Below, piece after piece: positions 57,393-59,415 of a stretch of 64,000 nt of DNA. Source of the DNA: Roseibacillus sp. (GTDB lineage: Bacteria; Verrucomicrobiota; Verrucomicrobiia; Verrucomicrobiales; Akkermansiaceae). The stretch covers positions 1 through 64,000 of the forward strand of contig NZAC01000038.1 of assembly GCA_002686085.1 (NCBI GenBank), read 5' to 3'. The notes beneath the pieces are model-generated. The model was not told where the DNA came from, made no database searches, and saw nothing but the letters and a program-made list of their open reading frames with translations. The translations under genes were made by a program, and so were the position numbers. Within the stretch, counting starts at the first letter, position 1; each line of letters starts with the position of its first letter.

Positions 57393-58421
57393 CTACTCCG
57401 CAGCGCTCCCGGCTTTCTCCTTGCCAATAAGGTTGTCTACTATTGCTCGAAGTTCCTTGGCGGGAATCGCATAAGTCTCACATCGGTTGGCGCGCGCGAT
57501 ATTCATCCCGACGCAATGCCCTTCCAGATTGAGAAGGGGCCCACCAACACTTCGGACAGAAAGCGGCAAGTCCGTTTGCAGCACCCTCGGAAAATCACTC
57601 CTCCTTTTGGAGACCCGCCCACTCATTGCATCATTTCTGGTCTTCCTCTCCTCGAAGACGCTCTCTCGCCTCTTCAATTCTACTTCCAAATCTAAACCTT
57701 CTCCGTCTCGTCTCAACCTTACCTGAATTCTGTCGCCCGGCTCCTTGCTGCCGAGCAACTCCTGTAAATCCTCCATACTCCTTACAGGACGACCCTCCAT
57801 CTCCAGAATGACATCACCACTTTCCAGACCCGCCTCACTGGCACCGGAATCCTTTTGCACCTCCTTGACCGGAAGCCCTTCCTCCTCTCCGCTGGTGTCG
57901 AGCGTTACCCCGAGAACTACCGGAGCTCTTCCCTCTCCCACCTTCCGAGCATTCGCACTAATGATCCCTACGCGGAGTCTCCGGTCCCGTCGAGTTGTCG
58001 ATCCGTTACTAATTACCCATGTCCCATGAGCCGGCTCAGGCTCCGCCCATTTAATTACGGGCAGGCCCTGCCCCTCTACCTTGAGCAGGGCCACATCCCA
58101 TTCCACCGTAGAGGAAACTACCCTCACCTTCTTGAAGTGCTCTCGGTTGACTCTGACACTGAGCTCCTCCACGCCTTCAATCTCGCTGGCTTTTGTGACC
58201 AAATACCCATCGGAACTCACGATGACTCCATAGGCAATGGACTTCCATCCATCGTAGACCACCGCGCTACTCTCTTGCAGCACTTCTCGAACTGGATCGA
58301 ACGCCTTCCATGTCTCTTTCCCGTTGAGACGAAATTCTCCCTCGAGCTGCCCGACCTGCTGCTGCGCGGAAGCCGCAGAGACAACTAGTGACAGGAGAAT
58401 CGGGATACCCCTACTTCTCAC
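57393..58421 (-). CDS. Degenerate HtrA-like protein with internal PDZ domain (pseudo-protease)
   Basis: A 342-residue exported protein with signal peptide (VRSRGIPILLSLVVSAASAQ) from GTG 58421. ATG 58454 is the alternative and overlaps the neighbouring gene by 44 bases. The fold follows HtrA: GVIVSSDGYLVTKASEI corresponds to the His segment, DVALLKVE keeps Asp109, and LQTDLPLSVRSVGGPLLNLEG corresponds to the Ser segment. At the catalytic positions His is replaced by Ser79 and Ser by Val292, so it should be inactive. A PDZ domain (about 165-255) is inserted before the Ser segment instead of following the protease domain. It overlaps the upstream intact HtrA gene by 11 bases, suggesting a paired function. 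Confidence 0.8.
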   Translation of the reverse strand: MRSRGIPILLSLVVSAASAQQQVGQLEGEFRLNGKETWKAFDPVREVLQESSAVVYDGWKSIAYGVIVSSDGYLVTKASEIEGVEELSVRVNREHFKKVRVVSSTVEWDVALLKVEGQGLPVIKWAEPEPAHGTWVISNGSTTRRDRRLRVGIISANARKVGEGRAPVVLGVTLDTSGEEEGLPVKEVQKDSGASEAGLESGDVILEMEGRPVRSMEDLQELLGSKEPGDRIQVRLRRDGEGLDLEVELKRRESVFEERKTRNDAMSGRVSKRRSDFPRVLQTDLPLSVRSVGGPLLNLEGHCVGMNIARANRCETYAIPAKELRAIVDNLIGKEKAGSAAE

Positions 58422-59415
58422 CCAACTCAACTTCCACTTCCTGCTCTTTATCATCTCTAAGGATTTTAAGTTTAACTTTTTGCCCGGGCTTAAAGCCTTT
58501 CAGCGATGCTGAGAACTGCTCTGCGCCGTCCAGTTCATTTCCGTTCAACATCAGAATGACATCGCCCTCCTGCAAGCCTGCATCAGCAGCAGGAGTCTTG
58601 TCGCCTACCTCTTTAATTACGACACCACCTTCTTCCCGGTCTTCAGTAGAGACTCCCAGAAAAGCCACTGCTTCTTGAGCGAATGGTCCCTTTCCTACGA
58701 ACTCCTTGGCCAACATCGCATCCCAGTTCTTAAGAAATTCGCGCAAGGGCACATGCATATTCTGCTCCAAGCTCGCCCCTACCCTGCTATGAATTCCGAT
58801 CAGTTGACCCTTCATATTAAAAAGCGGACCTCCCGAATCACCACCGATCAAATTGCAGTCAGAGTTAATGGTTTGCTCCGCCATTCTTACAAGTCGCCCA
58901 ATCCGGACCCCTACCCCTCTCTCCTTCTCAAAGCCCCCAGAGTGACCCAAGGCGTAGACCCAATCACCAAGTGAAGCTGAATCCCCTCGATCGAGTTCTA
59001 CATAGGGAAAAACCCCTTCCTCCATAATTTGAACCATGGCCGCATCCGTTGAGGCTACCAGACCAAGAGAGACCGCCTTATATTTCGTTCCGTCTTCCAT
59101 GATCACCGTCATTTCCTTCCCGACACCCGCGCTCACATGGGCAGCTGTAAGAACCAACCCTTTACCAGACACAATTACACCACTACCCGATCCACCTCCC
59201 AGATCAATAGACACCGTCGCAGCCCGTGCCTGAGGAAGAGTTTCTTGCAGTGCCTTTTGAATGTTGCGGAGATCACGGAGATCCTCTGGCACTTCTTTCT
59301 CGTTGAAATACTGCCGATCCTCTCCGACCTCCTCAGCGGCAGAGATCAGGCAGCAGCCCACCGACCATACCGAGAAACAAAACAACCAAAGACCTGTGAG
59401 ACGATGCTTTTTCAT
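58411..59415 (-). CDS. HtrA-like trypsin-type serine protease with PDZ domain
   Basis: A 334-residue exported protease with signal sequence (LTGLWLFCFSVWSVGCCLISA). The catalytic triad is visible: TAAHVSAG (His93), STDAAMVQI (Asp124) and GGDSGGPLFN (Ser194). A C-terminal PDZ domain (about 250-330) has FLGVSTED and the GLQEGDVILMLNG turn. This is the usual DegP/HtrA order. It precedes and overlaps the degenerate homologue, so the two are likely translated together. The substrate is unknown, and envelope protein quality control is the family role. Confidence 0.9.
   Translation of the reverse strand: MKKHRLTGLWLFCFSVWSVGCCLISAAEEVGEDRQYFNEKEVPEDLRDLRNIQKALQETLPQARAATVSIDLGGGSGSGVIVSGKGLVLTAAHVSAGVGKEMTVIMEDGTKYKAVSLGLVASTDAAMVQIMEEGVFPYVELDRGDSASLGDWVYALGHSGGFEKERGVGVRIGRLVRMAEQTINSDCNLIGGDSGGPLFNMKGQLIGIHSRVGASLEQNMHVPLREFLKNWDAMLAKEFVGKGPFAQEAVAFLGVSTEDREEGGVVIKEVGDKTPAADAGLQEGDVILMLNGNELDGAEQFSASLKGFKPGQKVKLKILRDDKEQEVEVELGEK

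Follow-up and report, generated by a model that had tools for sequence, protein, structure and literature searches.

An HtrA pseudoprotease with a PDZ domain in loop L3, paired and often fused with an active HtrA in Planctomycetes and Verrucomicrobia

In a stretch of Roseibacillus DNA, a pair of HtrA-type proteins is encoded by genes that overlap on the minus strand. The upstream gene, here called A, looks like a working protease. The downstream one, B, has lost catalytic residues, and its PDZ domain sits in the middle of the protease fold. What is a dead protease doing next to a live one, and why is it built this way? The window (the whole stretch of DNA that was analysed) is 64,000 nucleotides long. 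Its initial annotation described this pair and proposed that B could regulate or scaffold A. Going by the sequences, B may indeed do one or the other. This reading is strengthened by natural fusions of the two genes, by partner proteases that have no PDZ domain of their own, and by the residues for signalling to a neighbour that B has kept.

The intact triad claimed for A (His93, Asp124, Ser194) is found in its open reading frame, which is laid out as follows.

58411..59415, minus strand: gene A, HtrA-type serine protease, predicted to be exported, triad intact, C-terminal PDZ domain, 334 aa
59137..59139, minus strand: codon of catalytic His93 (TAAHV); His in 154 of 156 aligned A sequences
59044..59046, minus strand: codon of catalytic Asp124 (TDAAM); Asp in 156 of 156
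58834..58836, minus strand: codon of catalytic Ser194 (GGDSGGP); Ser in 156 of 156, the catalytic Ser itself being the criterion by which A is recognised
58423..58662, minus strand: C-terminal PDZ domain, residues 252-331 (Pfam PDZ_2)

Pfam places Trypsin_2 at residues 77-208, followed by PDZ_2 at 252-331. Members of the HtrA/Deg family (S1C) have a His-Asp-Ser triad in a trypsin-like domain and a PDZ domain after it; A has both, and judged by its sequence it is an ordinary HtrA. Both A and B start with N-terminal signal-like segments, so both are probably exported.

Gene B is less ordinary. Residues are counted here from the ATG at 58454.

57393..58454, minus strand: gene B, HtrA pseudoprotease whose PDZ domain interrupts loop L3; length 353 aa if read from ATG 58454, 342 aa if read from GTG 58421
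57939..58277, minus strand: protease fold, first part, residues 60-172 (Pfam, AlphaFold2)
57675..57914, minus strand: PDZ domain, residues 181-260, in loop L3 (Pfam PDZ_2, AlphaFold2, excision test)
57435..57599, minus strand: protease fold, second part (Ser segment), residues 286-340 (MucD alignment, AlphaFold2, excision test)
58191..58193, minus strand: Lys88 of TKASE, which replaces TAAHV; Lys in 155 of 157 B sequences
58185..58187, minus strand: Ser90 at the catalytic His position; Ser in 152 of 157, His in none
58095..58097, minus strand: Asp120 at the catalytic Asp position; Asp in 155 of 157
57546..57548, minus strand: Val303 at the catalytic Ser position (SVGGP replaces GDSGGP); Ser in none of 157
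58411..58454, minus strand: bases common to the tail of A and the beginning of B; 44 bases from ATG 58454, 11 bases from GTG 58421

The initial annotation had B with Ser for His, Asp kept and Val for Ser, and this is what the gene contains. Its numbers (Ser79, Asp109 and Val292) fit a start at GTG 58421; from ATG 58454 they go up by 11, to Ser90, Asp120 and Val303. Translation may begin at either codon. The ATG is kept in close relatives, but this does not fix the start of B, since the same stretch encodes the end of A. The overlap of 11 bases that had been reported therefore holds for the GTG start and fails for the ATG, from which it is 44 bases.

Besides the catalytic His and Ser, the oxyanion-hole sequence is gone from B. 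The fold is present; the triad and the C-terminal PDZ domain of the HtrA/Deg family (S1C) are not. The Trypsin_2 match to B is split into two halves with PDZ_2 (181-260) between them. When residues 173-285 are taken out, the halves join into one continuous match that covers positions 3-144 of the 144 in the profile, and the score is 61.0 bits, versus 54.3 when split. This means that the internal PDZ domain is real, as had been claimed. The AlphaFold2 model of B has a mean pLDDT of 85.7 and a pTM of 0.77. Among the matches listed by Foldseek for this model (against the PDB) and for a model of a fused pair (described below) there are canonical HtrAs only, at query-normalised TM-scores of at most 0.38, and none with the architecture of B. 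Such low scores are expected if the HtrA parts come in a different order.

Across the 157 distinct complete B sequences, the catalytic Ser position holds Cys in 79, Val in 33, Met in 27, Ile in 7 and Gln in 4, with Ala and Thr among the others. Cys being the commonest, a cysteine protease was considered, and rejected: the position also takes the other residues just listed, and the His is absent. Residues 88, 90, 91, 321 and 324 of B (in TKASE and IARxxR) are strongly conserved and differ from those of the active partner. They may form salt bridges that occupy the inactivated catalytic centre, or they may make up a site for a ligand.

A gene like this could be a frameshift, an assembly error or a pseudogene, and the initial annotation had named frameshift and assembly error as outcomes that would undo its claim. 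In more than 10 independent genomes from the genus the reading frame is the same (identity 54-94%), and dN/dS is 0.05-0.10 for B against 0.07-0.14 for A, which rules these out. Purifying selection on B is at least as strong as on A. The idea that B is a functionless, degenerating duplicate of A does account for the loss of two triad residues. It is refuted by the same selection data and by the distribution of the family, which is conserved across phyla without a restored triad ever being seen, and we give it virtually no chance.

The B family is found in Planctomycetota, Verrucomicrobiota and one metagenome-assembled genome of Kiritimatiellota. Matches occur in 31 of 39 related genomes. For a wider search, the C-terminal motif GGPxxDLxG...NIAR was turned into a DNA pattern that places no constraint on the three catalytic positions. 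It found at least 118 stretches, at least 73 of them in Planctomycetota, at least 42 in Verrucomicrobiota and at least 1 in Kiritimatiellota. The conservation of the GGP...NIAR residues in B is partly built in by this pattern. In the window's own phylum at least 31 of 289 genomes have B, and in a planctomycete set at least 16 of 149; these counts are lower bounds, as 7 or 14 candidates were scored per genome. The initial annotation had called the domain insertion unusual, and this applies across two phyla rather than to one genome. It had also named homologues with the usual domain order and triad as an outcome that would refute it. No homologue with the architecture of B and an intact triad was found: 0 of 157 sequences have the catalytic His or Ser.

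The conserved adjacency with an active HtrA that the initial annotation had asked about is borne out by 160 distinct pairs. In 133 of these, an A gene with GDSGG lies upstream on the same strand, and in the remaining 27 A and B share one open reading frame. A first count left 15 B genes with too little upstream DNA to tell, and 23 apparently unpaired; 15 of these were read, and in nearly all A is present. One B gene in Verrucomicrobiales (L066, 1426-2485, minus strand) has no HtrA within the 1.5 kb read upstream, and possibly works with an A elsewhere.

Not every A has a PDZ domain. None is detectable in 22 of the 160 pairs, so the one in B is the only one found there. PDZ-less A genes are present at 11 separate loci (L055-L065) of an Akkermansia-type genus within Akkermansiaceae, presumably Akkermansia itself, and in several fusions, for example L067, L152, L160 and L179. 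In the Akkermansia-type genus (L055-L065 separate, L067 fused) A is short, and there are two B genes per genome.

The natural fusion L067 (530 residues) was modelled with AlphaFold2 from 16 fused sequences, which gave a pTM of 0.74 with low confidence for linker and tail. By our estimate, halves in no fixed arrangement would be expected to reach some 0.5-0.6. The model contains some packing of A against B, which within a single chain hints weakly at contact, and the two halves may be packed non-natively.

To see what a PDZ domain in this place might do, it helps to look at HtrAs that have been studied. In DegS, loop L3 (residues 176-189) takes up the signal from the PDZ domain, and Arg178 in this loop then makes contact with the next subunit's LD loop (PMC11642142). 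In DegP, the side chains of the activation cluster are Thr176, Ser183, Arg187 and Gln200 (PMC11642142). B has residues corresponding to three of these.

57957..57959, minus strand: Ser166, equivalent to DegP Ser183 (MucD alignment); kept in 167 of 174
57945..57947, minus strand: Arg170 in loop L3, equivalent to DegP Arg187 and DegS Arg178 (MucD alignment); kept in 162 of 174
57576..57578, minus strand: Gln293, equivalent to DegP Gln200 (MucD alignment); kept in 164 of 174

That makes 96, 93 and 94% for Ser166, Arg170 and Gln293, which rank 19, 27 and 20 among 336 positions. Among 71 B sequences found without the motif pattern, Arg170 is present in all 71 and Gln293 in 70. The spacings agree between B and DegP: 4 from Ser to Arg, and 10 from Gln to the catalytic Ser position, which in DegP we take to be Ser210. 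Together with the MucD alignment, this places the PDZ domain of B immediately after the arginine of the relay, within L3.

In A, the equivalent of Ser183 is Ser in only 2 of 156; Val, Leu or Ala stand there instead. The equivalent of Gln200 is mixed (Gln in 62 of 156). A keeps the L3 arginine (147 of 156), and an aromatic residue in the LD loop is common (118 of 156). From this conservation we infer a division of labour, with B as the sender and A as the receiver. The Ser166, Arg170 and Gln293 residues could also be conserved for the sake of B's own fold alone.

The conserved pairing in Planctomycetes and Verrucomicrobia, often as a fusion, suggests one enzyme in which sensing and cutting are split over two proteins. 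A and B would form a single envelope quality-control protease in two parts, with A as the catalytic subunit. B would be its obligate non-catalytic partner, joining A in a mixed oligomer of the HtrA type. A peptide or misfolded protein that binds the PDZ domain of B would move L3, as the domain is built in behind Arg170. The moved loop would then switch the LD loop and the active site of an adjacent A. Probably, then, B is a non-catalytic regulatory subunit in a mixed oligomer, with activation of A gated by its PDZ domain. The complex, the mixing and gating of subunits, and activation rather than inhibition are all expectations drawn from the above. A bolder version is that the split is general: in Planctomycetota and Verrucomicrobiota, including Akkermansia, a dead subunit with a PDZ domain wired into L3 acts in trans on the LD loop and the active site of a separate active subunit, in an obligatory mixed oligomer. 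This is possible, and put forward tentatively. An L3 arginine and a PDZ domain of their own are present in most A proteins, which could work as homotrimers.

B might instead be a substrate adaptor or chaperone, whose PDZ domain and empty cleft catch misfolded proteins for A, from outside A's oligomer and with no relay from L3 to LD. The PDZ domain of B does have a conserved carboxylate loop of the Leu-Gly-Val type, the protease cleft is retained though dead, and A by itself possesses the whole triad and, in many cases, a PDZ domain as well. However, this leaves unexplained why a dead enzyme conserves Ser166, Arg170 and Gln293, and why the PDZ domain was inserted precisely in L3. Several fusions with short linkers also speak against it, and we regard an adaptor as unlikely. 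The anatomy fits equally well with B as a brake, a dead subunit that keeps A at rest until a ligand frees it: this is the activation reading with the opposite sign. In DegS the PDZ domain is inhibitory, with L3 holding autoinhibitory contacts (PMC11642142). That B retains the Arg of the active state slightly favours activation, and we regard a brake as unlikely.

Finally, Lys88, Ser90, Glu91 and Asp120 (plus Cys303 where present) might be a repurposed site, for example one that binds a metal or ligand. These residues and Arg321 and Arg324 are conserved, mostly nearly invariant, and there is a parallel in MamO, which binds metal via a surface motif (PMC4794232). Yet the nucleophile position varies freely between Cys, Val, Met, Ile, Gln, Ala and Thr, so there is no shared covalent chemistry, and the conserved cluster may merely fill the empty catalytic pocket. 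A new activity is very unlikely, and the regulatory subunit stays the preferred reading.

Dead HtrAs are not new. The closest precedent is MamE and MamO (PMC4794232), also an active and a dead HtrA in one gene cluster. The dead MamO is required for proteolysis by MamE, and physical interaction was not detected (PMC4794232). Unlike A and B, this pair is confined to magnetotactic bacteria. MamO also has a metal-binding motif, and its protease domain is followed by a TauE-like transporter domain; a PDZ domain within the fold is not described. Pfam finds no such C-terminal membrane domain in B. Against the NCBIfam model for MamO, B scores 42.6 bits, or 53.7 without its PDZ domain, below the cut-off of 800.

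The flagellar motor of Campylobacter contains PflC (PMC12222027), which like B is a dead HtrA of the periplasm that has taken on a different job. According to the accessible part of that source it is a structural scaffold with the order protease-PDZ-PDZ, and a partnership with an active HtrA is not described there. B has one PDZ domain, inside the fold. Arabidopsis Deg5/Deg8 (PMC4877387) resembles what is proposed here in that two different HtrA/Deg proteins make up one hetero-oligomeric complex, but these are described as proteases built from homotrimers, and a PDZ domain within the fold is not described. DegS, DegP and MucD share with B the protease fold, a PDZ domain and Ser183, Arg187 and Gln200; in contrast to B they have the triad, and their PDZ domain comes after the protease domain instead of in L3. 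A is a plain member of this group.

B resembles a regulatory pseudoprotease, and on its sequence lacks defining features of an HtrA protease, of MamO and of PflC. Published surveys that cover prokaryotic serine proteases or PDZ proteins report homologues that are inactive, as well as numerous PDZ proteins in planctomycetes, and in their accessible parts do not describe the architecture of B. No description of a pseudoprotease with its PDZ domain in L3 turned up in the searchable open literature.

According to a review, all characterised HtrAs are homo-oligomers (PMC11642142). Each subunit of a homotrimer both sends and receives, which makes the signalling between HtrA subunits hard to dissect. 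If the roles are separated in A and B, the direction of the signal would become testable through mutations in one gene at a time. Akkermansia and the planctomycetes would then also have a distinct envelope-stress protease.

The window's own genome has three A-B pairs, one of them fused. The fusion (L009, contig C11, 3261-5624, minus strand) is 787 aa long. Its linker is acidic, its B half has Cys in place of the catalytic Ser, and the genus retains this type in fused form. The other pair (L010, contig C24, 2472-4652, plus strand) is separate, and its B has TKWSE, EDCGAP and a charged C-terminal tail. In a tree of A and a tree of B, the genus's three types of pair separate into corresponding clades, which means that the pairs diverged as units. 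Beyond A and B, no common neighbour turned up in the few loci that were read. In the genus the A-B pair lies near rpoA, which is probably merely positional. The planctomycete fusions L160 and L179, which lack the PDZ domain of A, carry a long, repetitive, coiled-coil-like tail C-terminal to B.
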